Shown here piece by piece: positions 36,631-62,751 of a stretch of DNA of 64,000 nucleotides. This DNA comes from Elusimicrobiota bacterium. Its GTDB lineage: Bacteria > Elusimicrobiota > UBA8919. The notes under the pieces were generated by a model. The model worked only from the letters and a program-made list of their open reading frames with translations. It did no database searches and was not told the DNA's origin. The DNA lies in contig JAQUMH010000010.1 of the NCBI GenBank assembly GCA_028718185.1, forward strand, positions 22,763 to 86,762. Reading direction: 5' to 3'. Every line of letters begins with the position of its first letter. Positions within the stretch are counted from its first letter, which is position 1. The position numbers and the translations under genes were made by a program.

Positions 36631-39600
36631 ATGGAAATATTCGTAAAGTTAAAAAAGGTATCTTTTGTCTTTCTAATAATACTTTCTTCAACACTTCTTC
36701 ATTCTGCGGCACCCACAGTACCTGTCCTTTATTCACCTTCTACGGCAACATGGACAAATGTCAATATGTTTGACTGGTCTTCATCTACCACTACAACAGG
36801 TGATGCTATTTTTTACGATATAGCAGTAGATAATGCAGAAGATTTTGCAACAGTTGTTTCATCAGCTTATAATATATATAGGTCTTCCTGTTTAATATCC
36901 GAATTAGACAACACGTTAAGTGAGAATACTCAATATTGGTGGCATGTCAGGGCTAGCACTTCTACATCAGGAGAATATTCAGCATGGAGTTCTACCCGTA
37001 CATTTAAGTTAGATACAACAGATGCTGTATTTAGTAACATGCTAGTAAAGACATCTACGGGAGGATGGGCAGCGAATACTGTATATGTTAACGTATCAAC
37101 ACCACAAATACGAATTAATGTTCAAGACGTCAATTCGGGATTGAGTGTAGGACAGACCGAAACTTTAGCGAGTAGTGGTTGTGTTCTCTTGATGCATTTG
37201 AATGGGAATGCCAATGATAGTTCAGGATATGGGAATGATGGAACGATAACAGGCGCCGCATGGACAAATACACCTACATGGAAGTCAGTTGGTGGTAGTG
37301 AGAGTATTTTATTTTTTGATGGAAATGGTGATTATGTAGATTGTGGTAATAATGAAAGTTTAGATGTTACAACTGAATTTACATTATCAGCATGGATAAA
37401 CCCTACAGATGTTGTTGGTTATAACGGTATTATAGGAAGAAAACCTGGTTATAGTAGTTATTATGGGTATGCTATGGGACACGAAGGCGATGGCATACAT
37501 GTTAATGTAGGAGGTGGCACAAACTCAGGTCCTGCTTATTCTATTGGGGGTAATATTAAAGCAGGTATTTGGCAGATGGTAACTGCGACATATAAAAGCG
37601 GTAATTATGGCGGTGGTAAATATGGTAAAATTGATTATTATTACAATGGAAGCTGGTTTGATTATGATTTAATTGTAACTAGCTCAATTGTATCAGGAAC
37701 TGATAAATTGGGAATAGGTTGTGGAGATGCAACTAACCGTCCGTATATTTTCCAGGGTTATTTAGATGAAGCAGGGGTATGGAATAGGGCGTTAAGTGCG
37801 GAAGAGATAGCGGTTATGTATAATTCCTGTGCAGTAAAATACTCAACAAATGCATGGACAAGTTCTGCCATAATTACATCAACAGATACAATGTTTACGA
37901 CAGGTACCGACGGAACTACAGCAATACAATTTTCAACAGCAACAGAGGTACCGTTAAAAAATGGTACTGATAACAGGATACAGTTTTTAGCCAGAGATGC
38001 AGCCGGTAATTTATCTGAGTCAGCCAGTTACACAATAAATGTGGATACTGTTGCACCGTCAGACATAACAACACTTGCAGGAAGTAGTATTGATAATATT
38101 AGCAATATTGATGCACATTTATCGTGGTTAGCGCCTGGTTCGGATGCACAGACAGGAACTATAAATGACGGTCAATTCAAAATACGACGTGCAACTTGGT
38201 CAGTCACTCCTGAAAGTATGTGGGGAACTGGTTATGATGCTAAGCCGGCAGTAATAGAGCAGGAAGTAACTATAGATACAACTTCCGTAACACCTCTATC
38301 TTATCAAACAACAACATTTTATACTTTAGCAAATAATACATCACACTACTTTAGAATATGGACAAGGGACATAGTGGGTAACTGGTCAAACATATCCAAT
38401 GGTTGTACTGTATATCTTTCTCCGCCACCTCCGCCTGGCAGTTTTTCAGGTGTAGCACTTTCTACATATTCCATACAATGGTCTTGGACTGATGTTGCCG
38501 GCGAGACAGGATATCGTGTACGATATTCAACAAAAGCATCTCCTTCGGATGCACCTGCTTCACCGTCGTTACCTACTAATCAGATTACATGGACTGAATC
38601 CGGACTTATGGCGAATACGTCATATTACAGGGTTGTTGTATCTACTAATAGTCAGGGAGAAAGTGGTCTTTCAAACGCAGCAACAACTTACACACTTGCA
38701 AGCCCGCCGCTTGTACCCATAGTATTTTCTAATGTAGGGCAATCAAGTGCTACACTAACTTGGACAGCAAGTACAGATAATCCGGCATGGACAAGATATG
38801 GAGTGATAACTTCTACAAGTTCTGATTTTGCCGGAACAGCTGTCAGCACAACAGTCGCGTTTGCTGATAATCTTACAACTAACACAAAATCTGTTATTTC
38901 ATTAGGTACTGATACCACTTATTATTTTAGAATATTAGCATATAATGAAAGTCAAATTCAGACAGCATCCATAGAATCCAGTACAAAAACAAAGGAAGGA
39001 ATTCCTGATAGACCAAGAAATTTGAAAATTTCGGCGTTGTTAGGTACTACATCTATCTACTGGCAGTTTGATGACAATTCTACAAACGAGACAGAATTAT
39101 ATGTTTCCAGTAACATGGATATAACGGCAAGACTATCGACTAATTTAGCGAACACAGCATCTAAAGGTACTACTTATTGGTTAGAATTAGGACTTTCTAC
39201 TAACACACTATACACTAGATATGTTGAAGCAACTAATATTTATGGTTCTACTTGGTCAGTTGTAATTACAAGCTACACTATGGCGGCTGCACCTTTAAAC
39301 ATAACTTTTTCGAACGTCGGTTTTTCAAGTGTAACAGTTCCAATCCAGTGGGATGCAAATACTAATCCTGCAGGGACAAGGTTTGGTGTTTCACGTTCAG
39401 CAAATAGTACATTCAGTGCCACGGTAAGCACCTTTGTAGTTTATTCAAATAATTTAACTACCAATTCGACAACCGCAACCGGACTTACTGCAAGCACAAC
39501 ATATTATTTCCGTGTTTGGGCATATAACGGTAACCAGACTACAACATTATATACAACTTCTGTTTCCACAATAACAAATGAAGCACCACCCAATAAACCA

Positions 39601-41427
39601 TCAAATTTAAAAATATCGACATCAACATCATTAGGAACTACCTCAATATACTGGCAATTTGACGATAATTCCACTAATGAGACGGGATTATATATTTCCA
39701 GCGGTACAAACATAGCGGGAAGACTATCAACTAATTTAGCCAACACAGCAACAACAGGCACTACTTATTGGTTGGAAATAGGTCTTTCTACCAATACTTC
39801 ATATACAAGATATGCCGAAGCAATTAATGCCTCCGGATATAGTGTTTGGTCAACTCTAATTACAAGCTATACAGCTGCTGATGTACCTTCAAATCTTACT
39901 TTCCCTAATGTTTATACATCAAGTGCAACGCTAACTTGGTCTGCTAGCACTAACCCTACTGGTACAAGGTATGGGATAATAACTTCAAGCAGTTCTGATT
40001 TTTATGGAGCTTCCATAAGCACGACAGTCACTTATGCAAATAATCTTACTGCTAATACAACACCTGTAACTTCTCTAATTGCTGAAACAACATATTATTT
40101 TAGAGTAATAGCATTTAATGGTAATCAAATCCAAACATCATCTTTTGTTCAGTCCAGCACAATGACAAAATCAGGTGCTTATATACCTAATTTGCCGAAA
40201 AATTTAAAAATTGTATCATTCGGAACTACTTCTATTTACTGGCAGTTTGATGATAATTCTACTAATGAGACAGGGTTATATCTTTCCAGCGGTACAAATA
40301 TAACAATGCGATTATCTTCTAACTTAGCTAATACGGCAACAACAGGTACTACTTACTGGTTAGAAATAGGACTTTCAACTAATACAGCATACACAAGATA
40401 TGCCGAAGCGTATACTTTAGCAGGTTCTTCGTGGTCAGTTGCGATTACAAGTTACACTGCTGCTGCGGTACCTTCCAGTATTACCTTTTCTAATATTGGT
40501 ACGTCAAGTGCAACTTTAACATGGTCTGCTAATAATAATCCTAATACTACAAGGTATGCAGTAGAACGTTCATCAGATAATATTGTTTGGGATTGGAAAC
40601 AACTATTAGCTGACAACCTTACAGCAGTAACTTACATAGATTCTACTTTAGTTCCTAATACTACATTTTATTACAGGGTAACAGCATATAACGGCAATGG
40701 AACTGCCACGAGTGCATCGACAATATACAATGTTTGCACTAAAGCAGATATTGAACCACCCGCTGCTCCTGTCATTACTATTACTTTGTCTAACGCTCAA
40801 ACAACAATAAAAACCGGCGATAAAATGACATTAACAGGTACTGCTGAATTGGGTTCAAGTATTTATAGTATAACTATAAAGGATTTAGACGGGAACATAT
40901 TAGCACAATGGATAGACCCTGAAAGCTTAACTTCCGACACCATAAATAATATAACTTTAAAATCTGCTTCATCTAGTTCTAATGGTACTGTGGATATCAT
41001 AACATCATCTATCACGCTGGGTAATATCGCGGCAAAGTTTCCGATGGTGGGCGGAATAACGATAGGGATTGTTGTTCAGGACAGCGCCGGGAATAAATCG
41101 CAGACGGGAACTTCAGATGCTATTATGTTATCGGCAGAGACAAATAAGATAACGCTTTACAATAATTTATTTAATCCGGTGAAAGGCGATAAAATGACAA
41201 TTCGTTATGAAACAGTTCAACCGGGTAAGATAACAATAGATGTCTACACGCTAAATGGGGATAAAGTAACAACATTGGTAAATGAAACTACTACTTCATC
41301 TGTTCCACATTGGGCTACTTGGGATGGCAAAGATGATAACGGTAGTTTTGTTGCCAGCGATATTTATTTAATATACATAAAAGGACCCGGATTAAAAGAC
41401 ACTAAAAAGGTTTGTGTAATAAAGTAG
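36631..41427 (+). CDS. LamG/Fn3-array exoprotein with FlgD-like C-terminal domain (module 1 cargo)
   Basis: 1,598 residues. Signal peptide 1-26; an Fn3-like front domain (28-135); a LamG/concanavalin-A-like domain (about 179-400) with WINPTD..GIIGR and FQGYLDEAGVWNRALSAEEI; a beta-sandwich (402-480); and then about nine Fn3 domains to residue 1375. In the Fn3 array two types alternate; three copies carry TTSIYWQFDDNSTNET at about 200-residue intervals. An Ig-like domain (1380-1500) leads to the FlgD-like domain (1504-1598: YNNLFNPVKGDK..TWDGKDDNG..IYLIYIKG..KKVCVIK). No enzyme is recognised; it looks like a glycan-binding adhesin or matrix protein. No Shine-Dalgarno site is visible. The PorV-TPR gene starts 57 bases later. 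Confidence 0.85.
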   Translation: MEIFVKLKKVSFVFLIILSSTLLHSAAPTVPVLYSPSTATWTNVNMFDWSSSTTTTGDAIFYDIAVDNAEDFATVVSSAYNIYRSSCLISELDNTLSENTQYWWHVRASTSTSGEYSAWSSTRTFKLDTTDAVFSNMLVKTSTGGWAANTVYVNVSTPQIRINVQDVNSGLSVGQTETLASSGCVLLMHLNGNANDSSGYGNDGTITGAAWTNTPTWKSVGGSESILFFDGNGDYVDCGNNESLDVTTEFTLSAWINPTDVVGYNGIIGRKPGYSSYYGYAMGHEGDGIHVNVGGGTNSGPAYSIGGNIKAGIWQMVTATYKSGNYGGGKYGKIDYYYNGSWFDYDLIVTSSIVSGTDKLGIGCGDATNRPYIFQGYLDEAGVWNRALSAEEIAVMYNSCAVKYSTNAWTSSAIITSTDTMFTTGTDGTTAIQFSTATEVPLKNGTDNRIQFLARDAAGNLSESASYTINVDTVAPSDITTLAGSSIDNISNIDAHLSWLAPGSDAQTGTINDGQFKIRRATWSVTPESMWGTGYDAKPAVIEQEVTIDTTSVTPLSYQTTTFYTLANNTSHYFRIWTRDIVGNWSNISNGCTVYLSPPPPPGSFSGVALSTYSIQWSWTDVAGETGYRVRYSTKASPSDAPASPSLPTNQITWTESGLMANTSYYRVVVSTNSQGESGLSNAATTYTLASPPLVPIVFSNVGQSSATLTWTASTDNPAWTRYGVITSTSSDFAGTAVSTTVAFADNLTTNTKSVISLGTDTTYYFRILAYNESQIQTASIESSTKTKEGIPDRPRNLKISALLGTTSIYWQFDDNSTNETELYVSSNMDITARLSTNLANTASKGTTYWLELGLSTNTLYTRYVEATNIYGSTWSVVITSYTMAAAPLNITFSNVGFSSVTVPIQWDANTNPAGTRFGVSRSANSTFSATVSTFVVYSNNLTTNSTTATGLTASTTYYFRVWAYNGNQTTTLYTTSVSTITNEAPPNKPSNLKISTSTSLGTTSIYWQFDDNSTNETGLYISSGTNIAGRLSTNLANTATTGTTYWLEIGLSTNTSYTRYAEAINASGYSVWSTLITSYTAADVPSNLTFPNVYTSSATLTWSASTNPTGTRYGIITSSSSDFYGASISTTVTYANNLTANTTPVTSLIAETTYYFRVIAFNGNQIQTSSFVQSSTMTKSGAYIPNLPKNLKIVSFGTTSIYWQFDDNSTNETGLYLSSGTNITMRLSSNLANTATTGTTYWLEIGLSTNTAYTRYAEAYTLAGSSWSVAITSYTAAAVPSSITFSNIGTSSATLTWSANNNPNTTRYAVERSSDNIVWDWKQLLADNLTAVTYIDSTLVPNTTFYYRVTAYNGNGTATSASTIYNVCTKADIEPPAAPVITITLSNAQTTIKTGDKMTLTGTAELGSSIYSITIKDLDGNILAQWIDPESLTSDTINNITLKSASSSSNGTVDIITSSITLGNIAAKFPMVGGITIGIVVQDSAGNKSQTGTSDAIMLSAETNKITLYNNLFNPVKGDKMTIRYETVQPGKITIDVYTLNGDKVTTLVNETTTSSVPHWATWDGKDDNGSFVASDIYLIYIKGPGLKDTKKVCVIK

Positions 41428-41484: not shown

Positions 41485-42849
41485 ATGAGAAGATTTATTA
41501 TAACAATTTTGTTTTTCACATTAACAATATATAACTGTTATGCTGCAGGTCCTTGGACTAACGGGGCGTCTATATTAAGACAAGGGGTTGGAGCAAGACC
41601 TTTAGGTATGGGCGAAGCGTTTGTAGGTTTAGCTGACGATATAAATACTCTTCAGTTTAATCCTGCAGGGTTAAGTAATCTTTCTAATAATGAATTAGGA
41701 GCTGTATATTCAAAAGGGTTAGCGGATACAAGTTATAGTAATATGGCATATGCCCAACCATTAGGTGAGAAGGGTTATATTGGCGGTTCTTTCTTGTTAT
41801 TTCAGGGTGGAGACATTGAGATAAACTGGTGGGACTCAGTAAACGGGGTAAGAACTGAAACGAGGAATGCAAAAAAAGATTATGTTTTAACATTAGGATA
41901 TGCTCAGGATTTTATGAGCGAAGGTGAATTATCTGCAGGTGCTAATCTTAAATACGTTAGTAGTAAATTAGCCGAAGAATCTACAGCGTCCAGTATTGCT
42001 GTAGATTTAGGCGGGTTATATCGGTTATTAGATAATAAATTATCTTTAGGTCTGTCAATCCAGAATATAGGAACTGCGTTAAAATACAAAGGCGGTATAT
42101 CAAGCGGTTCGGAAGCCGACCCACTGCCTTTAGGAATAAGAGTAGGCGGTGCTTATGTTTTTATATCTGACGATTCCAAAGAACTTACAGGTGTTTTAGA
42201 TATTAATAAATATTCAAACACTGATATGCAGCTTAATTTAGGATTAGAGTGCTGGTTAAAAGAAATGATAGCGTTACGGGCCGGTTATGAAATAGGATAT
42301 GATTTAGCTTCTATTACGGCGGGTTTAGGGTTTAAAGTTAAGAATTGCCAGTTGGATTACGGATTTAGTCCTATGAGCGAAATAAACGCTATTCATAAAG
42401 TTTCCTTTATATTAAGGTTTGGCGAATCATCTGAAGAATCTGATGAGGAAGAGGCAGTTGCAGCTCCGGTTAAAAAATCCAAGCCTTCAAATATAAAACC
42501 TGACGTTTCAATAAAAAAATCTAAACCTTCGGATGCAAAAAGCAGCAGCAAAGCAGAACAAAAATATCAGAGAGGACTAATATATTTTAATGCAGAAGAA
42601 TATGAACTTGCTATTGCTGAATTTGAGGGTACTATTGCACTGAATCCGGACAACCAGGAAGCTACTGCGAAAATAGCGGAAGCTACTGAAAAATTAAAAG
42701 AACAAACTTATCAGCAAGGATTGGAATATTTCAATAAAGGTAAATATAAAAATGCAAAAGTTCAGTTTGAAAAAGTCATTGATATAGATCCTTCTAATCA
42801 GGAAGCCCAGCAGAAATTAAATGAAATTAAAGATTTGTTGAAAAAATAA
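41485..42849 (+). CDS. PorV/UPF0164-family barrel fused to TPRs (module 1)
   Basis: 454 residues. Signal peptide 1-21, then the PorV signature GVGARPLGMGEAFVGLADDI with FNPAGL, and a barrel to about residue 315 ending in an aromatic strand (ILRFGES). A charged linker with repeated KSKPS words (about 318-352) leads to TPRs (353-454) with typical KYQRGLIYFNAEEYELAIAEF helices. Classical PorV has no TPR tail; the tail would lie in the periplasm, where it could hold cargo or contact the translocon. The gene is almost identical over long stretches to the one at 57512, pointing to recent duplication or gene conversion. It sits between cargo 1 and cargo 2. Confidence 0.85.
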   Translation: MRRFIITILFFTLTIYNCYAAGPWTNGASILRQGVGARPLGMGEAFVGLADDINTLQFNPAGLSNLSNNELGAVYSKGLADTSYSNMAYAQPLGEKGYIGGSFLLFQGGDIEINWWDSVNGVRTETRNAKKDYVLTLGYAQDFMSEGELSAGANLKYVSSKLAEESTASSIAVDLGGLYRLLDNKLSLGLSIQNIGTALKYKGGISSGSEADPLPLGIRVGGAYVFISDDSKELTGVLDINKYSNTDMQLNLGLECWLKEMIALRAGYEIGYDLASITAGLGFKVKNCQLDYGFSPMSEINAIHKVSFILRFGESSEESDEEEAVAAPVKKSKPSNIKPDVSIKKSKPSDAKSSSKAEQKYQRGLIYFNAEEYELAIAEFEGTIALNPDNQEATAKIAEATEKLKEQTYQQGLEYFNKGKYKNAKVQFEKVIDIDPSNQEAQQKLNEIKDLLKK

Positions 42850-42900: not shown

Positions 42901-45900
42901 ATGAAAGACTTTCTCAAACCAAAAAACATAGTTTTTGTCTTTTTAGTTATATTTTTTCTTACTAACCTTTATTCAGCACCTCCTTCAGTACCTAATCTTT
43001 ATGTACCTTCCACAGCAACATGGACTAATATTAATACAATAGATTGGTCTACCTCAACTGCTCCAACAAATGATGTCGTTTTTTATGATTTACAGATAGG
43101 TAATTCAGAAGATATTTCAACAATAATAGCATCAAGCTATACAATATACAGGTCTTCCTGTTTAGTATCTGATTTGAATGGTAACTTAACCCAGGGTACT
43201 AAATATTGGTGGCATGTAAGAGCTAGTACTTCTACTACAGGAGAATATTCAGCATATAGTTCAACCCGTTCATTCAAGTTAGATACAACAGATGCAGTAT
43301 TTAGTAATCCTCAGGTAAAGACATCCACAGGAGGTTGGGCAGCAAATAACGCATATGTAAATGTATCAACGCCGCAGATACAGGTAAGTGTTCAGGATAC
43401 AAATTCCGGATTGAGGGTAGGGATGACTGAGACAATAGCGAGTAGTGGCTGTGTCGGATTGTGGCATTTAAATGGTAATGCTGTAGATAGTTCAGGTTAT
43501 GGTAATGATGGAACAATAAATTCAGCACAATGGGATAGTATTACTACGTGGAAAACAACAGGCGGCAGTGAAAATATGTTATTTTTTGATGGTAGTGGTG
43601 ATTACGTAAATTGTGGTAACGCAGCGAGTTTTGGAAATTTAGTTAACAAAATAACTATATCCTTGTGGTCATATCAGATAACAGCACAAGGTGGTACTAT
43701 TAAGATAGCGGTAGGCAGATCCAGCGATTGGGAATTTGGCGATTGTGGTAATGGCACTGATTGGGGTTTTTATTCATCTGCGTTATCAGGGGGTGGTTGG
43801 GTTTCTGGTGGTGTGGTAACAACACGTAACGCGTGGCATCACATGGTATTTACATATGATGGCGCAGCAGGGAGGATATATAAAGACGGAGTATTAGCAG
43901 TCGAGAAAGCGAGGGTAGGTAATTTAAATGTAACTGCCAATATATTGATTGGTCAATTGGGCAGTAGTAATTTTTACTTTGATGGATATTTAGATGAAGT
44001 AGGAATATGGGATCGGGCATTAAGTCCGGAAGAGATAGCAGTGATGTATAATTCCTGTGCAATAAAGTACTCAACAAATGCTTGGACAAATTCAGAAATA
44101 ATAACATCAACATCAACTGAACCGATAGTGCGGACAACAGGCAACGATGGAACAACGGCATTACAGGTGTCAACAGCTACAGCGATACAATTTAAACATG
44201 GTACAAATAACAGGATACAGTTTTTAACCCGTGACGAAGCTGGTAATCTTGCCGAGTCAGTTAGTTACACAATAAATGTAGATACAGTCCCGCCGTCAGC
44301 TATAACATCGCTTTCAGGTCTTGCTAACGGTAGTAATATAAACCTATCATGGATATCGCCCGGTACGGATGGAATAACTGGTGCAATAGATAATGGACAA
44401 TTCTTAATCCGGCGAGCTACATGGTCAGTAACACCAAGTTTATGGGGAACAGGATATGATAGCAAACCATCAGTAATAGCACAGGAAATAACAATAGATA
44501 CAGGCACGACGTCTTCACTGCCTGCATTATCACTTTGTTCAACTACATTTAGCGATTTAGATAACAATGCAACACATTATTTTAGGATATGGACAAGAGA
44601 TACAGCAGGCAACTGGTCAAGTTTATCCACAAATGGCTGTACTGTATATATACTATCACCACCAACACTATACTATCCGTCAACAACGACATGGACCAAT
44701 GCAAATATATGTGATTGGAGTGATGTTCCAGGAACAATAGGATATTATTTAGAAATAGATGATGACATAAATTTTGGTTCGCCGGTTGGAGGTTTTGGGG
44801 ATGTTACTACATCATCGGCAGCGATAACTTCTTTATCGGAAAATACAAAATATTATTGGCGGGTAAAAACTAAATATAGTGCTAATAATTATGGTGCATG
44901 GAGTTCTACCCGTTCGTTTAAGTTAGATACAACAGATGCAGTATTTAGTAATCCTCAGGTAAAGACATCCACTGGAGGTTGGACAGCAAATACAGCATAT
45001 GTAAACGTATCAACGCCGCAGATACAGGTAAGTGTTCAGGATACAAATTCCGGGTTGAGGGTAGGAATGACTGAGACAATAGCGAGTAGTGGTTGTGTCC
45101 TATTGATGCATTTAAATGGGAACACATTGGATAGTTCAGGTTATCGTAATGATGGAACAATAACTGGAAATCCTGAGTGGAAAAATATTTCTTCATGGAA
45201 GTCAGAATCTAACACTGAGAGCATGTTATATTTTGATGGTTTTAATAATGAATATGTTAATTGTGGTAACGGATCTGGACTTAATGAATTAACTAACAGT
45301 ATGTCAATATCAATATGGGTAAAATGGATACGGTCCATTTGGGAGGTCCAGCAAATAGCGGTTGGAAGGACCGGTGGCGGCGGCTGGCGATTTGGTGCTG
45401 GGACAAACAGTTTAAATTGGGGTTTTTATGGGAATGGTACATATGGTGGTGGAGGAACGTGGGCACCTGATCCTGTTGTACCAGTATCACAAAACGTATG
45501 GCATCATATGGTATATACATATGATGGCGATACAGCAAAGATATATAAAGACGGGCTATTAGCAGCGCAGAAAAGTGTGTCCGGTGCTTTACTTGCTACG
45601 GACAATATATATATTGGTGCAATACAACCTACAACGTTTTATTTTGGAGGATTTATAGATGAAGTAGGTATCTGGAAACGTGCATTAAGTGCGGAAGAGA
45701 TAGCAGTGATGTATAATTCCTGTGCTATAAAATACTCGACAAATGCATGGACAAATTCAACAATAATAGTATCAACATTAACGGAACCGACAGTACGGAC
45801 AACAGGTAGCGATGGAACTACGACATTACAGATATCAACAGCAACAGCAATACAATTCATACATGGTACAGATAACAGGATACAGTTTTTAGCTCTGGAT

Positions 45901-51758: not shown

Positions 51759-52703
51759 ATGGACGAAAAAAAGATAAATTTACTGGTAGTTGATGATGAT
51801 GACAGCATAAGAGAAATGCTCAGTACTATTCTTAAGAGAGCAGGCTACGAGGTATTCAGTTCTGCAAATGGTTCTTCTGCTATCAAGGAAGCGAGAAATT
51901 GTTTTATAAATTTAGCTGTTTGTGACTATAATTTACCGGATATAACCGGTCTTCAAATAGCAAAAGAATTAAAAGTAATTAATTCAGATACAAATATAAT
52001 TCTAATGACCGGTCAAGCTACGCTGGAGATGGCTATAGAGGCAATAAGGGGAGATGTTGATGAATATCTGATAAAACCTATAGATCCGGGATTACTGAAG
52101 CGGGCAATAAAAAGTTCTTTGGAAAAACAATGGTTGGTCATAGAAAACAGAAGACTTTTAAAAGAACTAAAAGATGCCAATCCGTTAACCGGTTTACCCG
52201 GTAATCTTGTGATAATGAACAAAATAGAAGAAAAAATTAAAAAACAGATACCATGTGCAATTCTCTATCTTGACATTGATAATTTTAAATCTTATAATGA
52301 TTACTACGGTTATATAAAAGGAGATGAAGCAATTGGATCTTTTAGCAATATCCTGAAGGATTGTATAGAAAACGAAGATTTTATCGGGCATATAGGAGGT
52401 GATGATTTCATTATAGTCACAACACCGGGTAATTATGAAAAACTTTGCAATGAAATCATCAAACGATTTGACAATTTAGTGCCTTCCTTTTATGATGAAG
52501 AAGCTCGCAAAAAAGGTTATATACTGACACCTAATCGGAAAGGCGAAGAAGAAAAATTTCCCCTTATGTCGATATCTATCGCTGTCGTTGATACTTCTAT
52601 GCGTACTTACTCTCATCTTGGCGAAATAAGCAAGATTGGTGCAGAATTAAAAAAATATGCTAAAACTTTTTCTGGCAGCATTTGGGTAAAAGATAAAAGA
52701 TGA
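51759..52703 (+). CDS. Response regulator with receiver and GGDEF-type domain (GGDDF variant)
   Basis: 314 residues. The receiver (1 to about 125) has the VDDDD pocket, Asp56 in VCDYNLPD, MTGQA and KPI. The output domain (about 135-314) is GGDEF-like: NPLTGLPGN, ILYLDIDNFKSYNDYYGYIKGDEAI, and GHIGGDDF (213-217), where GGDDF replaces GGDEF. It keeps a terminal extension with GYILTPNRKG and PLMSISIAVVD. GGDDF with this extension recurs in a GGDEF subfamily, as I recall, so it need not be dead, but cyclase activity is not assured. If active it makes c-di-GMP in response to the kinase upstream, which would connect to the GEMM-like leader at 1340 and to surface adhesion. It lies 32 bases before cargo 3. 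Confidence 0.88.
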   Translation: MDEKKINLLVVDDDDSIREMLSTILKRAGYEVFSSANGSSAIKEARNCFINLAVCDYNLPDITGLQIAKELKVINSDTNIILMTGQATLEMAIEAIRGDVDEYLIKPIDPGLLKRAIKSSLEKQWLVIENRRLLKELKDANPLTGLPGNLVIMNKIEEKIKKQIPCAILYLDIDNFKSYNDYYGYIKGDEAIGSFSNILKDCIENEDFIGHIGGDDFIIVTTPGNYEKLCNEIIKRFDNLVPSFYDEEARKKGYILTPNRKGEEEKFPLMSISIAVVDTSMRTYSHLGEISKIGAELKKYAKTFSGSIWVKDKR

Positions 52704-52735: not shown

Positions 52736-55700
52736 ATGAAAACTTTTTTTAAATCAAAAAACATAGTTTTTGTCTTTTTTGTTATATTTTTTTCTTCCAT
52801 TCTTAATGCAGCGCCTCCTACAGTACCTAATCTTTATTCACCATCAACAATGACATGGACTAATATTAACACAATAGACTGGTCTACATCAACTGCTCTG
52901 GCAGGACAAACTGTCTTTTACGATTTAGAAATTGATGATGCTCAAGATTTTGTATCGGTAGTTGCATCAAGTTATACAATATACAGGTCTTCTTGTTTAA
53001 TATCTAATTTGAACGGTTCATTAAGTGAGAATACCCAATATTGGTGGCATGTCAGGGCTAGCACTTCTACATCCGGGGAATATTCAGCGTGGAGTTCAAC
53101 CCGTTCATTTAAGTTAGATACAACTAAAACCGTATTTAGTTATCCACAAGTTAAATTATCCACAGGAACATGGGCAGCAGCAAATACTGCATATGTAAAT
53201 GTTTCAACACCTCAAGTGCGAGTAAATGTTCAGGATATAAATTCCGGGTTGATGGCAGGTAAGACAGAGATAGTGGCAAGTAGTGGTTGTGTTGGATTGT
53301 GGCATTTGAATGAGGGTTCTGGTGCTACTGTTTATGATGCAAGTGGTTATGGGAATAATGGAACAATAACTCAAGCTACCTGGCAAAATATGACTTCATG
53401 GAAGTCAACAACTAAAACTGAAAAAACGTTATATTTTCTTGATGATAATGATAATGTGGATTGTGGTAGCGGAGCGAGTTTTGCAAATTTACTTAACAAA
53501 ATAACGCTATCAGTATGGGCAAGACGTACAGGAGGTCTATTGCAGCCATTAGCGGTTGCGAGGATTGGTGACTGGCGATTTGGCTGTGAAACCTCAGCTG
53601 GAAATTGGAATTTTTATACGGCTGCATGGACATGGGTATTTCCTACTGGTGTACCGGTAGCAGCGAATGAATGGCATCATATGGTATTTACATATGATGG
53701 AGCAACGGCAAAGATATATAAAGACGGAGCATTAGCAGTACAGAAAGCTGCTTCAGGTAATTTGACTACAAATGGAAATGTAGCTATTGGCGGATGGGCT
53801 ACGGTATGTTTTACAGGATACTTGGATGAAGTGGGAATATGGGATAGGGTATTGGATCCGGAAGAGATAGCAGTCTTGTATAATTCCTGTGCAGTAAAGT
53901 TTTCATCAAATACAGTTAGCGGTTATTCAGGAATAATTACATCAACATCAACAGAACCAACAGTGCTTACAACCGGCAGCGACGGAACTACAACATTACA
54001 ATTTTCAACCGCCACCGCTGTGAATTTTCTGCCTGGGTCAAATAACAGTATACAGTTTTTAGCCCGTGACAGTGCAGGTAATCTTTCCATGTCAGGTGTT
54101 TACACAATAAATGTAGATACTATATCACCATCAGCAATAACCTCACTTACTGGTCTTACTAGTAGTAGTAATATAAATCTATCATGGATATCACCAGGCA
54201 CAGATGGTACAGTTGGTGCGATAGATAATGGGCAATTTTTAATACGGCGAGCCACATGGTCAGTCACTCCTGAAAGCATGTGGGGAAATGGATATGACAC
54301 CAAACCTGCAGTAATAGAACAGGAAATAATAATAGATACGACTTCACTGCCTGCATTATCTAATTGCACAACTACATTTTATGATTTACAAACATCTGTA
54401 ATACATTATTTTAGGATATGGTCAAGAGACACCGCCGGGAACTGGTCAAGTATATCTAACGGGTGTACGGTGTATTTTAATCTACCGACAGCACCTACTA
54501 ATTTTACAGGTGTAACTCTCTCAACATATTCAATACAATGGTCATGGAATGATGTTAGTGATGAGAGCGGCTATCGTGTCCGTTATTCTACAGCGTCATC
54601 TTCATCGGAAGTAGCAGTATCATCTTCATTACCTGCCAATCAAGTTAGTTGGACAGAGTATGGATTAACCGCGAACACATCATATTATAGGGTTGTAGTA
54701 TCTACTAATGCCAGTGGAGAAAGTAATCTTTCAAATGCAGCTACTACCTACACGTTTGCAAATCCGCCTCTTGCACCTGTAGTATTTTCTAATGTTGGGT
54801 ATTCATCAGTTACAGTGCAATGGACTGCCACAGATAATCCGTCATGGACAAAATACGGTATAATATTGTCAAGTAATCCGGAATGTTATGGAGCAACAGT
54901 AAGCACAGCAGTTACTTTTGCTAATAATCTTACTAATAACACAACATCTGTCTTTTCACTAAATTCTGAAACCACGTATTATTTTAGAATAATAGCGTTT
55001 AATAATGAGCAAATTCAGACAACATACATTCAATCCAGCACTACAACAAAAACAGGACCACCTGCTGCACCTTCAAACATAAAAATATCAGCACTGTTAG
55101 GTCCTACGTCAATTTACTGGCAGTTTGATGATAACTCGACAAACGAGACAGGGTTATTCCTTTCCAGTGGAACAGATATAACGATGCGATTATCGCCTAA
55201 CTTAGCAAATACCGCAACCACAGGCACAACTTACTGGATAGAATTAGACCTTTCAACAAACACACAATACACCAGATATGCTGAAGCGGTTAATGCAACA
55301 GATTCCAGTTGGTCAGTTGTAATTACAAGTTACACCGCTGCTTATGTTCCTTCTAATCTTACACTTTCTAATGTTTATTCATCAAGTGCAACATTAACAT
55401 GGTCTGCCAACACCAATCCTAATGGTACAAGATATGGTGTAATATCATCAAGTAATCCTGAATGTTATGGGGCAACAGTAAGCACGGCAGTCACTTTTGC
55501 TAACAATCTTACTGCTAACACAACATCTGTCCTTTCGTTAAATTCTGATACTACATATTATTTTAGAGTAATTGCATTTAATGGAAATCAAATTCAATCA
55601 TCATCATATGTTCAGTCCAGCACAACGACAAAATCAAGTGTTGTAATACCTAATCGACCAATCAATTTAAAATCAGCGTCATTAGGAACTACCTCAATTT

Positions 55701-57460
55701 ACTGGCAGTTTGATGACAATTCAACTAACGAGACAGGGCTGTACTTTTCCAGTGGAACAAACATAACGATGAGATTATCACCTAACTTAGCAAATACTAC
55801 GACCACAGGCACTACTTACTGGTTAGAATTAGGACTTTCTACAAACACACAATACACCAGATATGCTGAAGCATATAATACCGCTGGTTCCAGTTGGTCA
55901 GTTATAATTACAAGTTATACAGCAGCTTATGTTCCTTCTAATCTTACGCTTTCCAATGTTTGCTCATCAAGTGCGACCCTTACTTGGTCTGCTAACACCA
56001 ATCCTAACGGTACAAGATATGGTGTAATATTATCAAGTAACCCGGAATGTTATGGAGCAACAGTAAGCACAGCAGTCACTTTTGCTAATAATCTTACTGC
56101 TAACACAACACCTGTATCTTCATTAAGTTCTGAAACCATATATTATTTTAGAGTAATCGCATACAATGGAGATCAAATTCAGACAGCATACATCCAATCC
56201 AGTACAATAACAAAACCATCTGCTGCTCCTGCCACTCCAACAAACTTAAAAGTATCAACATTATTAGGTCCTACATCAATCTACTGGCAGTTTAACGATA
56301 ACTCAACAAATGAGACAGGACTATACCTTTCCAGTGGAACCAATATAACGATGCGATTATCACCTAACTTAGCTAACACGGCAACAACAGGCACTACCTA
56401 CTGGTTAGAATTAGGACTTTCAGCTAATACTTTGTATACCAGATATGCTGAAGCTGTTAATGCGGCAGGTTCAGCTTGGTCAGTTGTCATTGCCAGTTAC
56501 ACTGCTGCCAGTGTTCCCTCTAACATAACATTCGCTAATGTTCACTCATCAAGCGTAACTCTAAGCTGGTCTGCTAATACTAATCCTAACGGAACAAGAT
56601 ACGGTGTTGCTAAATCCACTAATAGTGAATTCACCGGCACAGAAGTAAGCAGTATAACCTATTCAAACAATTTAACTCTTACAACAACTACTTTTTATTC
56701 ACTATCATTAAACACATCATATTACTTCCGTGTTTGGGCATATAATGGAAATCAGATACCTACTACATATGTTCAAACCAGCACAATAACAAAATCCGGA
56801 GCACCGCCAAATGCACCTGTTATTTCTGTTATATTGCCCGGCGAACAAACAACAATAAAAGTTGGAGATACAATCACATTAGCAGCTGCTATTGAAACAA
56901 GTGCAACTCTCTATAAAATAACCGTAAAAGACTTAGATGGAAATACATTGGCGGAATGGTTGGATCCTGCAGGCTTAACATCTAACACAATAAATGGTAT
57001 AACATTAGATTCTGCTACTGAAAATCCTGATAATATAATAGCAGATATCACGATAGGTAATATTACAGCAAAATACCCTATGTTAAAAGGGATAACAGTA
57101 GAAATTATTGTTCAGGACAATTCAGGAATATCACAACCCGGTATATCAGAACCTATTTTAATATCAGCAGAGACAAACAAAATAACACTTTACAACAACT
57201 TATTTAATCCGGTAAAAGGCGATAAAACAACAATCCGTTATGAGACAAAAAGACCGGGCAGGATAACAATAGAAGTATATACTATAAACGGAGATAAAGT
57301 AATAACACTGGTAAACGAAACTACTACTTCGGCTGTTCCTTACTGGGCGACATGGGATGGTAAGGACAGTAATGGTGACCTTGTCTCAAGTGGAATATAT
57401 TTAGTACATATAGAAGGACCCGGATTAAAGGACACTAAAAAGGTTTGTGTGATTAAATAG
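52736..57460 (+). CDS. LamG/Fn3-array exoprotein with FlgD-like C-terminal domain (module 3 cargo)
   Basis: 1,574 residues. Signal peptide 1-25; front Fn3-like domain; LamG (182-386) with CVGLWHLNEGSGATVYDASG and GYLDEVGIWDRVLDPEEI; beta-sandwich and Fn3-like (388-580); then a long Fn3 array (about 586-1356) in which two Fn3 types alternate. The pair repeats three times at about 580-base spacing, with strong DNA similarity between copies. An Ig-like domain and the FlgD-like domain (1478-1574) close the protein. Overall order matches cargo 1. The leader AAATATAAATGAAA is shared with cargo 2; no ribosome site is visible. Likely a surface-displayed adhesin; ligand unknown. Confidence 0.85.
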   Translation: MKTFFKSKNIVFVFFVIFFSSILNAAPPTVPNLYSPSTMTWTNINTIDWSTSTALAGQTVFYDLEIDDAQDFVSVVASSYTIYRSSCLISNLNGSLSENTQYWWHVRASTSTSGEYSAWSSTRSFKLDTTKTVFSYPQVKLSTGTWAAANTAYVNVSTPQVRVNVQDINSGLMAGKTEIVASSGCVGLWHLNEGSGATVYDASGYGNNGTITQATWQNMTSWKSTTKTEKTLYFLDDNDNVDCGSGASFANLLNKITLSVWARRTGGLLQPLAVARIGDWRFGCETSAGNWNFYTAAWTWVFPTGVPVAANEWHHMVFTYDGATAKIYKDGALAVQKAASGNLTTNGNVAIGGWATVCFTGYLDEVGIWDRVLDPEEIAVLYNSCAVKFSSNTVSGYSGIITSTSTEPTVLTTGSDGTTTLQFSTATAVNFLPGSNNSIQFLARDSAGNLSMSGVYTINVDTISPSAITSLTGLTSSSNINLSWISPGTDGTVGAIDNGQFLIRRATWSVTPESMWGNGYDTKPAVIEQEIIIDTTSLPALSNCTTTFYDLQTSVIHYFRIWSRDTAGNWSSISNGCTVYFNLPTAPTNFTGVTLSTYSIQWSWNDVSDESGYRVRYSTASSSSEVAVSSSLPANQVSWTEYGLTANTSYYRVVVSTNASGESNLSNAATTYTFANPPLAPVVFSNVGYSSVTVQWTATDNPSWTKYGIILSSNPECYGATVSTAVTFANNLTNNTTSVFSLNSETTYYFRIIAFNNEQIQTTYIQSSTTTKTGPPAAPSNIKISALLGPTSIYWQFDDNSTNETGLFLSSGTDITMRLSPNLANTATTGTTYWIELDLSTNTQYTRYAEAVNATDSSWSVVITSYTAAYVPSNLTLSNVYSSSATLTWSANTNPNGTRYGVISSSNPECYGATVSTAVTFANNLTANTTSVLSLNSDTTYYFRVIAFNGNQIQSSSYVQSSTTTKSSVVIPNRPINLKSASLGTTSIYWQFDDNSTNETGLYFSSGTNITMRLSPNLANTTTTGTTYWLELGLSTNTQYTRYAEAYNTAGSSWSVIITSYTAAYVPSNLTLSNVCSSSATLTWSANTNPNGTRYGVILSSNPECYGATVSTAVTFANNLTANTTPVSSLSSETIYYFRVIAYNGDQIQTAYIQSSTITKPSAAPATPTNLKVSTLLGPTSIYWQFNDNSTNETGLYLSSGTNITMRLSPNLANTATTGTTYWLELGLSANTLYTRYAEAVNAAGSAWSVVIASYTAASVPSNITFANVHSSSVTLSWSANTNPNGTRYGVAKSTNSEFTGTEVSSITYSNNLTLTTTTFYSLSLNTSYYFRVWAYNGNQIPTTYVQTSTITKSGAPPNAPVISVILPGEQTTIKVGDTITLAAAIETSATLYKITVKDLDGNTLAEWLDPAGLTSNTINGITLDSATENPDNIIADITIGNITAKYPMLKGITVEIIVQDNSGISQPGISEPILISAETNKITLYNNLFNPVKGDKTTIRYETKRPGRITIEVYTINGDKVITLVNETTTSAVPYWATWDGKDSNGDLVSSGIYLVHIEGPGLKDTKKVCVIK

Positions 57461-57511: not shown

Positions 57512-58867
57512 ATGAAAAAGATTGTAATAATTTTGTTTTTCACATTATCAACATATATCTGTCATGCTACAGGTCCCTGGACTAACGGGGCATCTATATT
57601 AAGACAAGGAATTGGAGCAAGACCCTTGGGTATGGGAGAAGCATTTGTAGGTTTAGCAGATGATATAAATACACTTCAGTTTAATCCTGCAGGGTTAAGT
57701 AATATTTCAAATAAAGAATCAGGAGCTACATATTCAAAAGAATTAGTTGATATGAGTTATAGTAATATAGCATATGCCCAACCATTAGGTGAGAAAGGAT
57801 ATATTGGCGGTTCTTTCCTGTTATTTCAAGGTGGGGACATAGAGATAAACTGGTGGGACTCAGTAAACGGGGTAAGAACTGAAACGAGGAATGCAGAACA
57901 AGATTATGTTTTAACATTAGGATATGCTCAGGATTTTATGAGCGAAGGTGAATTATCTGCAGGTGCTAATCTTAAATACGTTAGTAGTAAATTAGCCGAA
58001 GAATCTACAGCGTCCAGTATTGCTGTAGATTTAGGCGGGTTATACCGGTTATTGGATAATAAATTATCTTTGGGTCTGTCAATCCTGAATATAGGAACTG
58101 CGTTAAAATACAAAGGCGGTATATCAAGCGGTTCGGAAGATGACCCGCTGCCTTTAGGAATAAGAGTAGGCGGTGCTTATGTTTTTATTTCTGAAGACAT
58201 GAAAAAACTTACAGGTGTTTTAGATATTAATAAATATTCAAACACTGATATGCAGCTTAATTTAGGATTAGAGTGCTGGTTAAAAGAAATGATAGCGTTA
58301 CGGACTGGTTACGAGATAGGATATGATTTAGCTTCTATTACAGCCGGTTTAGGGTTTAAAGTTAAGAATTGCCAGTTGGATTACGGGTTCAGTCCTATGA
58401 GTAAAATAAACGCTATTCATAAAGTTTCGTTTATATTAAGGTTTGGCGAATCATCTGAAGAATCAGATAAAACAGTTACAGCTACGATGAAAAAATCTAA
58501 GCCTTCAAATGAAAAAACTAACAGTTCGGTGAAAAAATCTAAGCTTTCGGATTTGAAAAGCAGCAGTAAGGCTGAACAAAAATACAAAAGAGGGTTAATG
58601 TACTTTAATACAGAAGAATATGAACTTGCTATTGCTGAATTTCAGGGTGCGATTGAGTTGAATCCTGACAATCAGGAAGCCACTGCAAAGATAGCTGAAG
58701 CTACTGAAAAACTAAAAGAACAAACATACCAGCAAGGATTAGAATTTTTTAATAAAAAACAATATGCAAAAGCTAAAGTTCAGTTTGGTAAAGTACTTGA
58801 AATGGATCCTTCTAATCAGGAAGCTAAACAAAAATTAATAGATATTGAAAATTTGTTAAAAAAATAG
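57512..58867 (+). CDS. PorV/UPF0164-family barrel fused to TPRs (module 3)
   Basis: 451 residues with signal peptide, PorV signature (GIGARPLGMGEAFVGLADDI, FNPAGL), barrel to about 315, a linker with repeated KKSK words, and TPRs (351-451). Over several hundred bases in the middle of the barrel it is nearly identical to the gene at 41485, including at silent positions, whereas the gene at 47597 has diverged more. It follows its cargo by 51 bases. Same proposed role: outer-membrane partner of the adjacent CTD-bearing exoprotein. Confidence 0.85.
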   Translation: MKKIVIILFFTLSTYICHATGPWTNGASILRQGIGARPLGMGEAFVGLADDINTLQFNPAGLSNISNKESGATYSKELVDMSYSNIAYAQPLGEKGYIGGSFLLFQGGDIEINWWDSVNGVRTETRNAEQDYVLTLGYAQDFMSEGELSAGANLKYVSSKLAEESTASSIAVDLGGLYRLLDNKLSLGLSILNIGTALKYKGGISSGSEDDPLPLGIRVGGAYVFISEDMKKLTGVLDINKYSNTDMQLNLGLECWLKEMIALRTGYEIGYDLASITAGLGFKVKNCQLDYGFSPMSKINAIHKVSFILRFGESSEESDKTVTATMKKSKPSNEKTNSSVKKSKLSDLKSSSKAEQKYKRGLMYFNTEEYELAIAEFQGAIELNPDNQEATAKIAEATEKLKEQTYQQGLEFFNKKQYAKAKVQFGKVLEMDPSNQEAKQKLIDIENLLKK

Positions 58868-58968
58868 AAAAAAAAGAAAATGTGTTTAAAAAATGGCACA
58901 TGGCAATAAAATTGCTACAAAGTGTTAAAGGAAGTTAAAGTAATTAAAATTGAACATTGAAGAAAAAA

Positions 58969-61338
58969 ATGAAAAAAAGCGTATCAATATTTATTCTGAT
59001 ATGTAGTTGTTGTATAAATCTTGTTTTTGCTAACACTTGGAGTCAAACGTCTTACGATGATTTCAATGCCGGTTACCTTGATAATACATCACCTGTGGGA
59101 ATAGGTAATGGCGCAACTATATATCTTAGTCGTGCCAATTGGTATAATGAAAATTGGGCTTATAGAATACCTATAACTATATATAATTCAACTTCAACAC
59201 TTAACAGTTTTCAGGTATTCATAAGCACGAAAGACATGGGTTCATCTACCCTCGCAGCAATAAGAACTGCTGGCAAAACCAATAGTGACTATAGCGACAT
59301 AATTTTTGTAGATGGTTCTAATAACAAAATAAATAACTATTGGATAACTCCTAGTACAATTAATCCAAACGGTGTCTGGTTGAAAATACCCACAATATCC
59401 ACAGGTACCAGTACAGTATTTATGTATTATGGTAACACAAGTGCTACTACTCCTACTTCCAACATTGATAACACTCTGCAAAAGGTATCTACTATTACAG
59501 CGTTTGGCACATATGACGCTCGCTTAGGTGCTTTATATAATTTTGACGAAGGCAGTGGACCGACTGTTAGTGATTTGTCGGCTAATGGTAACGATGGAAC
59601 TCTAAACGGCGGTATTATATGGGCAGGAAGTGATGGCGGTACAATCGGTAACGTAAGTACTTCTACAATCAAATTCTCCGGTAACGCATTAAATTTTGAT
59701 GGAATAGATGACTATGTAAGCTGCGGTAATACTGGTTTGGGTTCTACTAGTACAGTATCTATAGTAGCATGGATATATATTGACCCAGCAAAAAACAATA
59801 CTGCCAATATAGTAACTAAAAACGGCGGTTATTACCAAAATCAATATTCAATGATGTGGAGTAATAATGATAAGCGTATATCTTCTGGATTTAATGGTAA
59901 ATATTGGCTTGGAAGTTCAGCTACTAACTCAGTTTATGTAGCCAATTGGTATCAAGTAGCAATGACATATGGTAAAAATTACATTAATTATTACGTTAAT
60001 GGCGCTGCTTCCGGTAGTTCGTATTCACTTAGCATAGCTACACTTGCTTACACAACTAATATAATAAGAATAGGCAGAGTTTTCGGTGGTGGCGACGATA
60101 GCTTCCAAGGTACAATAGATGATGTAGCAATATATACTGAGGTGATATCTTCAGGTGAAATTAAAGCACAATATGAGCGCCGAAAGTATGCTGATCCCGA
60201 ACCTACAGTTGCTCTTGGTTCGGAGGTCCCCTATTCTTCTATAAGCGGCGCATATGTGTCAAACGGTAGTTTTACTTCTTCTTCTAATGATAGCAGTTCT
60301 GTTGCCGGGGTAAGTTGGGATTCGATATTATGGTCTCCTACCAACCAACCTGTCGGTACAAGCTTAAAATTCCAGATAGCTACGAGTAATGATAATAAAA
60401 CATGGGTCTTTCGCGGTCCTGATGGAGCTTTAACTACTTATTACACAACAGCGAGTGGTCAGTCAATATGGACAGGTCATACAGGCGACCGTTATTTAAA
60501 ATACAAAATATATTTTTCAGGCGATGGAATATTTACGCCTGAAGTTCATTACGTAACAATAAGCTACACACCGGTTGCTACTGAAATATCAGGAGTTGTT
60601 GATTCAGGCAAAGCAGATGATTCTCTGGATATATATTATGCCAAGTTGTCCATACCTGCAAATACAATTACTCGTAATGTTGAATATACTATTACTAAGC
60701 GTTCAGAACCGTCAATTTCTGTATTAACTGCCCCGATGAAACCGATATTGTCATATGATATCGAAGCAAAAGATTCTGTAAGCAATGAGTTACTTAGCAC
60801 GTTAGGTGGTGCAATTACACTTACCATGCGTTGTAAAGCTACTAAAGGTTCCGATGGTATATATTATGTAGATAATACTTACCCGGCACTGCCGTTATCT
60901 GAAGCGTCCAAATTAGCTATTCATTATTGGGATGGCGCGAGATGGCAATTGGTAGGCGGCACTGTAAGTGTTGATGAAAACACGGTGACGATAACAACTA
61001 AAATAAGTCATCTTGCAGAATATAGCATTGCAGTAAAATCGACAATAGTATCATCAAAAAGACTTACAGTTACATACAATATTTTTACACCTTCAGGGCC
61101 TGATAGCAGGTATGGTGAAGCAAGATTTGTGTTTGCAAACGAAAATAGTGAGGTTGCGGAATTAAAAATATATAGCATTTCAGCAAAATTAATCCGTACA
61201 GTAACTGCAACAGAGCCGGGTATCTCATGGGATGGTAGAAACGAGAGTGGTGATATCTGCGAAAGTGGAGTATATATATACCAGTTAAAGTTAGGCACTA
61301 CAATGCTGGGTAAAGGTACGGTAGTTTTAGCGAAGTAG
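58969..61338 (+). CDS. DUF2341-LamG exoprotein with FlgD-like C-terminal domain (module 4 cargo)
   Basis: ATG at 58969 (789 residues) is preferred to an in-frame TTG at 58957. Signal peptide 1-21; DUF2341-type domain from about 59 (NENWAYRIPITI..FMYYGNTSA) to 165; LamG (183-407) with LYNFDEGSG and FQGTIDDVAIYTEVISSGEI; a beta-sandwich (428-535); a ZU5-like region (536-690) in which the HFSTY seen in the left-block proteins reads HLAEY (H681-L682-A683); and a FlgD-like domain (695-789) ending ISWDGRNESGD..YIYQLKLG. DUF2341 next to LamG is a common pairing in bacterial surface proteins. It is shorter than the other cargos and has no Fn3 array. The PorV-TPR gene follows after 33 bases. Confidence 0.85.
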   Translation: MKKSVSIFILICSCCINLVFANTWSQTSYDDFNAGYLDNTSPVGIGNGATIYLSRANWYNENWAYRIPITIYNSTSTLNSFQVFISTKDMGSSTLAAIRTAGKTNSDYSDIIFVDGSNNKINNYWITPSTINPNGVWLKIPTISTGTSTVFMYYGNTSATTPTSNIDNTLQKVSTITAFGTYDARLGALYNFDEGSGPTVSDLSANGNDGTLNGGIIWAGSDGGTIGNVSTSTIKFSGNALNFDGIDDYVSCGNTGLGSTSTVSIVAWIYIDPAKNNTANIVTKNGGYYQNQYSMMWSNNDKRISSGFNGKYWLGSSATNSVYVANWYQVAMTYGKNYINYYVNGAASGSSYSLSIATLAYTTNIIRIGRVFGGGDDSFQGTIDDVAIYTEVISSGEIKAQYERRKYADPEPTVALGSEVPYSSISGAYVSNGSFTSSSNDSSSVAGVSWDSILWSPTNQPVGTSLKFQIATSNDNKTWVFRGPDGALTTYYTTASGQSIWTGHTGDRYLKYKIYFSGDGIFTPEVHYVTISYTPVATEISGVVDSGKADDSLDIYYAKLSIPANTITRNVEYTITKRSEPSISVLTAPMKPILSYDIEAKDSVSNELLSTLGGAITLTMRCKATKGSDGIYYVDNTYPALPLSEASKLAIHYWDGARWQLVGGTVSVDENTVTITTKISHLAEYSIAVKSTIVSSKRLTVTYNIFTPSGPDSRYGEARFVFANENSEVAELKIYSISAKLIRTVTATEPGISWDGRNESGDICESGVYIYQLKLGTTMLGKGTVVLAK

Positions 61339-61371: not shown

Positions 61372-62751
61372 ATGAAACAAAACAAAAGACAGTTTTTCTT
61401 ATTTATAATAGCAGCATTGACGTTATTCTTTAGAAACGAGCTTTATTCGGCGTTTGTAGATTTAGGTGCTGGCGCTCGTCCTTTAGGTATGGGTGGTGCG
61501 TTTGTAGCAGTAGCAGACGACGCAAATACAATAATGTACAACGCGGCAGGTGTAACACAATTAGATAGAGAAGAACTAACCGCTACCTATACTAAATTAT
61601 ATACCGGAATAGATGGTTTAAGCAATAATTTCGTAGCATATGTGTATCCAATGGGTGAGAAGCTTGGTGCACTCGGGTTTGGATGGTACAATTTTACAAC
61701 GAAAGATCTTTATAATGAAAATACTGTTATTCTTTCATATGGAAGTCAATTTAGTCCCATGTTATCTGCAGGATTAAATCTAAAATATCTGTCTAAACAA
61801 TATATAACTAATGAATGGACCGAATCAAACCCGGTATTTAGCAATGGTAATAGTGCAAGCGGTATATCTTTAGATTTAGGAGTTTTATATAGTGCGAGTG
61901 ATGTTTTATCATTAGGTTTTTCAGCTGAGAATTTTAATAGTCCGGATATAGGTCTAAAGAGCACCGATAAGGTACCTGCAAATATTTGTTTAGGTGCGGC
62001 ATATTATTTAACTGAACATGTTTCTACTGCGTTAGACATAGCATTTCGTAATGATTTAGTTAATGTAAATATTGGTTGTGAAAGTAAAGTATTAAATGAC
62101 AATCTAGCACTAAGGTTTGGTTATGGTAACAATGCTTTAACGGTTGGTGCTGGTTGTTTAGTAAATATAAAACAGACTCTGGAAGGTCAGATTGATTATG
62201 CATTTAACAGTCCGTTAAAATTTGTAGATGGTGGCGGCGGCAGTCATCAAATATCGTTAAGTATGCGTTTTGGTGAACCAAAAGCAACCGCAGAAGAAGC
62301 AGCAGCGGAAGAAACGACAACAGAAGCAGCAGTAGAGACACCAAAGGCAACAGAAGAAACAGAAACACCAAAGGCAGAGGGACAGGAAGCTGAAAAAACA
62401 GCTGCGCCTGCGAGCGGAGACATAAAAGAAAATATTGCTGCAGGCATAGAGTTCTATAAATTAGGTAAATATCTAAAAGCATTAGACGAATTTAATAAGG
62501 CTTTGGAAACGGATGATAAAAACAAACAATGTTTAAAATATTTAAAAAAGATGACAGCAAACATGGAGAAAATGAAAAAGACTTTTAGAACAGAAGCGGA
62601 GTTAGTATATGCAAAAGGTTATTTGTATTATGCTAATAATGAAACAATAAAAGCAGTTGCACAATGGGATAGGTTAATAACAATTGAGCCCGATAATGAT
62701 GAAGTAAAGGAGTATTTGGATAAATTAAAAAATGATGGTGAAGCAAAATGA
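61372..62751 (+). CDS. PorV/UPF0164-family barrel with Ala/Glu/Thr-rich linker and TPRs (module 4)
   Basis: 459 residues. Signal peptide 1-26; signature GAGARPLGMGGAFVAVADDA with YNAAGV; barrel to about 300 ending SLSMRFGEP; an alanine/glutamate/threonine-rich linker (about 302-350); then TPR-type helices (357-459) including FYKLGKYLKALDEFNKALE. It is the most diverged TPR-bearing PorV here, matching its diverged cargo, as expected if each pair evolves together. The last bases overlap the start of the next exoprotein gene (ATGA), so translation is probably coupled. Confidence 0.85.
   Translation: MKQNKRQFFLFIIAALTLFFRNELYSAFVDLGAGARPLGMGGAFVAVADDANTIMYNAAGVTQLDREELTATYTKLYTGIDGLSNNFVAYVYPMGEKLGALGFGWYNFTTKDLYNENTVILSYGSQFSPMLSAGLNLKYLSKQYITNEWTESNPVFSNGNSASGISLDLGVLYSASDVLSLGFSAENFNSPDIGLKSTDKVPANICLGAAYYLTEHVSTALDIAFRNDLVNVNIGCESKVLNDNLALRFGYGNNALTVGAGCLVNIKQTLEGQIDYAFNSPLKFVDGGGGSHQISLSMRFGEPKATAEEAAAEETTTEAAVETPKATEETETPKAEGQEAEKTAAPASGDIKENIAAGIEFYKLGKYLKALDEFNKALETDDKNKQCLKYLKKMTANMEKMKKTFRTEAELVYAKGYLYYANNETIKAVAQWDRLITIEPDNDEVKEYLDKLKNDGEAK

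Follow-up and report, generated by a model that had tools for sequence, protein, structure and literature searches.

Pairing of surface-type protein genes with PorV-family barrel genes in an Elusimicrobiota genome encoding a SprA homolog

Why should one large exoprotein gene after another be followed directly by a gene for an outer-membrane barrel resembling PorV, a carrier of the Type IX secretion system (T9SS)? This question is raised by a 64,000-nucleotide stretch from an Elusimicrobiota bacterium (assembly GCA_028718185.1, contig JAQUMH010000010.1; the whole stretch is called the window here), which forms one end of its contig in a genome of 3.03 Mb and 27 contigs. The window holds four cargo-barrel pairs, all on the + strand (Table 1), and their intergenic gaps measure 57, 46, 51, and 33 bp, where the initial annotation had given 33-101 bases. 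The pairs exist as it described them, except that their series is interrupted at 49397-52703 by the three genes of a two-component set. The fifth cargo that it placed behind them is also there, cut by the contig end. Cargos and barrels have leader-like hydrophobic N-termini in translation, and the cargos combine Laminin_G_3, mostly with fn3, or PKD with a C-terminal domain (CTD). The FlgD-like tails noticed at first proved to be this CTD, which ends all four module cargos; TIGR04183 exceeded its cut-off at 47218-47547 and 57128-57457, and the CTD of the cargo at 36631 was missed by public models and detected by a custom profile.

The barrels were likewise PorV-like with TPRs, as first described. 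A family model spanning PorV and PorQ was passed by four of the five window barrels; those at 41485, 47597, and 57512 scored 183-186 bits (cut-off 90), and the one at 61372 fell just below with 84.6. TPRs were found in all four module barrels, followed in 47597 by an OmpA domain. The window barrels did not reach the cut-off of the PorV equivalog NF033710 (21-90 of 250 bits), and that of the PorQ equivalog was likewise missed (82 of 220 bits). When the AlphaFold model of 47597 was compared with solved structures, PorV chains 8gl6_F and 6h3i_F were the best matches and the FadL family came next, PorQ lying outside this comparison. The CTD profile matched PorZ (E 3.2e-10), FlgD (E 3.1e-6), and PorU (E 4.5e-4), and host cargos carry the type A CTD (TIGR04183) that is one hallmark of the T9SS. 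Two other candidates were set aside: FadL/Toluene_X gave three weak genome matches, none over cut-off, and was the wrong model for the barrels, and the similarity of the CTD model to complement proteins, glycanases, and C5a peptidase was attributed to sandwich folds that are widespread.

Pairing of surface-type protein genes with PorV-like barrel genes exceeds chance throughout the genome. The PorV-family model gave 53 matches, 44 of them above the cut-off, distributed over 52 genes. With public CTD models, 34 matches to FlgD_ig and 55 to TIGR04183 (most of the latter over cut-off) were obtained and merged to 67 places, and a CTD profile built from 61 terminal CTDs and applied to about 860 kb of stretches around the matches identified 77 genes with a terminal CTD, a count that omits genes outside the 860 kb that public models miss. 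CTD ends detected by public models lay at most 450 bp upstream, on the same strand, of 23 of the 52 PorV genes, compared with a mean of 0.33 and a maximum of 4 in 2000 random placements. With 450 bp as the linkage threshold, 25 cargo-then-PorV and 21 PorV-then-cargo links were found, one of the former (on contig C6) having an intervening open reading frame (ORF) of 124 aa; they include 42 of the 52 PorV genes and 43 of the 77 CTD genes. Of the 10 unlinked PorV genes, three precede an ORF that is cut off by the contig end, one is separated from a CTD cargo by a single small ORF, and six are solitary or next to a protein without a recognised CTD. A search for transcription signals gave no excess over shuffled sequence (promoter-like sites, 77 vs 74.5; terminator-like sites, 12 vs 10.2).

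The two gene orders separate by CTD class. In the CTD tree, from which classes were assigned, the near-uniform classes B1 (35 genes, mean identity 77%) and B2 (9 genes) stand apart from a diverse remainder, class A (33 genes). Cargo-then-PorV order occurs in 25 of 33 class A genes vs none of the 44 B1 and B2 genes (Fisher p 1.2e-13), and PorV-then-cargo order in 12 of 35 B1, 4 of 9 B2, and 5 of 33 class A genes, three of these five being the tandem modules in the window. The window also contains the reverse layout, a PorV gene ahead of a giant B1 cargo, beside the single layout first described. Altogether, 27 of 33 class A genes have a PorV within 450 bp. Among the six that do not, two form a tandem in front of a linked gene, one is truncated where its contig stops, one is separated from its PorV by a 132-aa ORF and one by two genes, and C1_912872 has no PorV in the stretch read. 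Mean identity within class A is 29% for CTDs and 27% for barrels (the class A and B2 identity figures come from a C-terminal-letter rule, by which two B2 genes were counted in A). The proposal of one dedicated shuttle per cargo stands in part: pairing is the rule for one CTD class, and strict one-to-one specificity is not supported, since 34 of the 77 CTD genes lack a PorV at this distance, 28 of them among the 44 B1 and B2 genes.

The PorV tree mirrors these classes, with a B1 clade (n=15, support 1.0) and a B2 clade (n=7, support 0.998), and PorV clade equals CTD class in all 16 PorV-first B pairs, even though the PorV stop and the CTD start are 2,752-10,356 bp apart (median 7,481). Over 41 pairs, PorV and CTD distances were correlated (Mantel r 0.52, reached in 0 of 5000 shuffles). 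Several results weigh against strong one-to-one coevolution: r was 0.30 for class A alone (65 of 5000) and 0.24 for 21 deep pairs (223 of 5000), and nearest neighbours matched in 9 of 25 pairs, short CTDs resolving trees poorly. One class A clade repeats the match on a smaller scale, in that four CTDs (58957 in the window, C3_57446, C9_19450, and C9_15581; support 0.99) have barrels that also form one clade (0.988). Three of these CTDs matched the type B CTD model (24-34 of 35 bits, with one at 35.5 in the genome search), and three of the barrels matched the PorP/SprF model below its cut-off (36-47 of 90.55 bits). The window member, 58957/61372, matched neither model (type B CTD, none at E 0.1), and the three genome matches of the type B CTD model (TIGR04131) all lie outside the window. 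On these scores, the known type B/PorP-type pairing seems to be nested within the same genome.

Within the window, the strict specificity of each pair proposed at first is not supported for modules 1-3. They are duplicates whose barrels (80-91% identical) and CTDs (82-86%) are alike; compared by blocks, cargo bodies share 15-81%, barrels 73-98%, and the TPR region 48-86% identity, the greatest divergence lying in the cargo body and tail. These three modules would probably exchange carriers, and B1 and B2, as two near-uniform CTD classes, could share theirs. Since closely related modules are probably interchangeable, specificity would probably be per CTD class rather than per gene.

The cargo-then-PorV order recurs in relatives. 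In 10 relative genomes, a type A CTD lay at most 450 bp upstream of 44 of the 70 PorV genes listed (about 0.17 expected) and downstream of one; genomes of the host's family had 12-50 PorV matches each, and others of the phylum 1-26.

Long tails are confined to one class of barrel: 20 of 30 class A barrels vs none of 22 B barrels measure at least 390 aa. In a Pfam search, 10 of the 20 had TPRs over cut-off (one with OmpA, one with LysM) and one had LysM without TPR; the others comprised two CsgG/LpoB-like tails, two weak TPR and one weak CsgG matches, and four barrels with no recognised tail domain. In well-studied proteins, peptidoglycan is bound by domains of the OmpA and LysM types. When a database was searched with 47597, it yielded 77 relatives, some with TPR, LysM, SLH, or CsgG domains, which fits wall-facing domains having been taken up by barrels more than once. 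The TPR tails, initially proposed as possible periplasmic cargo-holding arms, belong to this wider C-terminal set, which would fit a role as periplasmic anchors. PorV-like proteins of other lineages (P0049, P0051, P0057, and P0069) have S-layer homology domains fused to them, a further module that binds the wall, and a 929-aa protein at L050:10724-13513 has a PorV-like start and a long unexplained remainder with no Pfam match at E 0.01.

As the initial annotation stated, translocon genes lie outside the window, and the genome search that it proposed found a SprA homolog. SprA_N exceeded its cut-off in the host genome and was matched in 11 of 30 relatives. Solved SprA was matched by a profile built from the proteins of nine relatives (E 2.6e-31), and 1434 residues of the host protein, searched as one sequence, had no match among solved structures; TIGR04189 was matched by nine of nine relatives, the member shown scoring below the model's cut-off. 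These matches indicate a putative Sov/SprA translocon at the level of homology. SprA homologs were found in at least 80 loci, mostly of Elusimicrobia or Endomicrobia and some of other phyla. Beside sprA, a PorV(TraF_2-like)-cargo-PorV set and two genes resembling lptF/lptG are present in the host and in four of the five relatives read (5 of 6 genomes), and in the sixth, G004, the contig ends about 900 bp past the two lptF/lptG-like genes, so that it is uninformative. In the five genomes, the cargo between the two PorV-family genes is a CTD-bearing M6-type metalloprotease (L048:11349-16658, L172, L173, L174, and L176); CTD and M6 peptidase matches were obtained in the two proteins scanned, and HExxH is kept in five of five. 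That this protease acts on exported tags like PorU, as a possible stand-in for it, is speculation. Searches of the host genome for GldL and GldM (PorL/PorM) and for the PorU sortase (Peptidase_C25) gave no match, and the control genomes were equally silent; three relatives each had one weak match to GldL or GldM, which was disregarded. A bolder proposal, which we put forward tentatively and consider unlikely, is that Elusimicrobiota have a stripped-down SprA-based system that lacks both the GldLM motor and the PorU sortase. The single shared type A shuttle of Bacteroidota would be replaced in it by dozens of class-specific PorV carriers doubling as wall anchors, and the sortase by the M6-type metalloprotease beside sprA.

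The pairing, its two layouts, the match of CTD and PorV clades, the tails, and the SprA homolog linked to one module can all be read from the sequence, and we think it reasonably probable that the pairs are cargo-plus-carrier modules of a SprA-type (type IX-like) secretion system, in which the barrel would export and then wall-anchor its neighbour. The cargo would likely leave through the SprA homolog, taken up via its CTD by the neighbouring PorV-family barrel. CTD and barrel may meet inside the SprA pore, by analogy with published SprA-PorV-CTD structures, where the CTD binds PorV loops as well as SprA within the pore (PMC10994853). The cargo would then stay at the surface, with the barrel tail predicted to grip the cell wall; a role of TPR, OmpA, and LysM tails in anchoring is inferred from the type B/PorP/PorE model (PMC9143113, PMC12618676), since anchoring through PorP and PorE has been proposed (PMC9143113).

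Three other accounts have to be weighed against such modules. In one, carriers are shared: a cargo can use every PorV of the appropriate clade, and adjacency persists only through joint duplication and retained co-expression. The near-identity of the three window copies (about 80-90% in barrel and CTD), the unlinked majority of B1 and B2 cargos, and the weak co-variation of class A are what it would lead one to expect, and a shuttle common to three orphan cargos has been published for type B CTDs (PMC12618676). The class A pairs are divergent, yet most retain their PorV within 450 bp, and PorV clade fits CTD class in every B pair; we regard sharing on this scale as possible, though not likely.

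That the barrels are fixed surface anchors or PorQ-like docking parts, which capture a cargo exported by one common shuttle, would agree with the wall-facing tails and with a family model that spans PorV and PorQ while both equivalogs are missed (90 of 250 and 82 of 220 bits). None of the 52 PorVs stands out as a common shuttle, the PorV adjacent to sprA itself belongs to a cargo module, and the best solved matches of the modelled barrel are PorV (again with PorQ outside the comparison), which makes this account improbable. It is more improbable still that there is no type IX link, and that FadL-like outer-membrane proteins simply lie beside exoproteins with a FlgD-like wall or assembly domain. 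FadL does supply the next-best structural matches of the barrel, and FlgD matches the CTD profile, but PorV ranks above FadL and PorZ above FlgD, and the genome encodes a SprA homolog that is linked to a module.

Cargo-plus-carrier modules have precedents in Bacteroidota. According to PMC12618676, PorV recognises every type A CTD, each type B CTD pairs with a cognate PorP/SprF-like shuttle whose gene commonly lies immediately downstream, and the T9SS is exclusive to Bacteroidota; it was detected in 60 of 97 Bacteroidetes genomes and no other clade (PMC4793230), and has been placed in the Fibrobacteres-Bacteroidetes-Chlorobi group (PMC11205867). The present pairs resemble the SprB-SprF type of Flavobacterium johnsoniae, where a cargo gene is directly followed by that of its own carrier barrel and orphans share a carrier (PMC12618676), and where wall anchoring via a TPR/OmpA protein has been proposed (PMC12618676, PMC9143113). 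They differ in that the CTDs are mostly type A-like (TIGR04183), the barrels belong to the PorV family, the tail is fused to the barrel, and the phylum is another; nearer to the type B arrangement are three modules outside the window, of one clade, with type B-like CTDs and PorP-leaning barrels. With the PorV shuttle of Bacteroidota they share a PorV-family barrel, a type A-like CTD, and a SprA homolog, but where a single PorV is said to serve all type A cargos there (PMC12618676), this genome has 52 PorV-family genes, many of which have tails and a neighbour of their own. PorE, a peptidoglycan-binding T9SS lipoprotein with TPR, beta-propeller, and OmpA-type domains (PMC7463736), has its likeness in the TPR and OmpA-type domains at 47597-49309, which are carried on the barrel itself rather than on a separate lipoprotein with further domains. 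We found no report of a T9SS in Elusimicrobiota in the open-licence literature; PMC7031533, PMC8542988, PMC8857248, and PMC12204202 mention both and, in the parts available, report none. What looks new is that a pairing principle known for type B CTDs and PorP/SprF would apply here mainly to type A-like CTDs and PorV-family barrels, many with likely wall-facing tails. If so, carrier choice would be modular, each divergent sorting tag keeping its own barrel; a single genome would offer about 25 natural pairs, with two shared-carrier classes as internal controls, making tag-carrier recognition directly testable; and SprA-PorV-CTD export would extend to a further phylum, Elusimicrobiota.

Table 1. 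Cargo and PorV-family barrel genes in the window
Feature	Coordinates	Strand	Remarks
Cargo 1	36631..41427	+	Lectin-like (Laminin_G_3) + fn3 exoprotein, class A CTD
PorV-family barrel, TPR tail, partner of cargo 1	41485..42849	+	
Cargo 2	42901..47550	+	Laminin_G_3 + fn3 exoprotein, class A CTD
PorV-family barrel, TPR + OmpA tail, partner of cargo 2	47597..49309	+	AlphaFold model resembles PorV of SprA complex
Cargo 3	52736..57460	+	Laminin_G_3 + fn3 exoprotein, class A CTD; CTD modelled as seven-strand sandwich
PorV-family barrel, TPR tail, partner of cargo 3	57512..58867	+	
Cargo 4	58957..61338	+	DUF2341 + Laminin_G_3 exoprotein, class A CTD; sister to type B-like CTDs elsewhere in genome
PorV-family barrel (84.6 of 90 bits), TPR tail, partner of cargo 4	61372..62751	+	4-bp overlap with next gene
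Cargo 5	62748..63998	+	PKD domain, FlgD-like CTD; cut by contig end
PorV-family barrel, clade B1, without tail, precedes its cargo	1758..2708	+	
Giant cargo, B1 CTD	2776..12114	+	Starts 67 bp after its PorV
Cargo, B1 CTD	17628..22790	+	Without adjacent PorV
Cargo, B1 CTD	22909..26664	+	Without adjacent PorV

The set between modules 2 and 3 consists of a response regulator, a histidine kinase, and a regulator with a diguanylate-cyclase-like end, named from translation. Three similar metallo-hydrolase-like genes stand in tandem at 32772-36183, and their translations contain what is presumably an HSHxDH-type motif. Two similar large exoproteins without a recognised CTD (12652-15420 and 26944-29637) are located among the B1 cargos, a hint that a set of genes was duplicated. 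CTD/PorV modules repeatedly end at contig ends (window position 64000, the end of L035, and L032), as if repeats broke the assembly.
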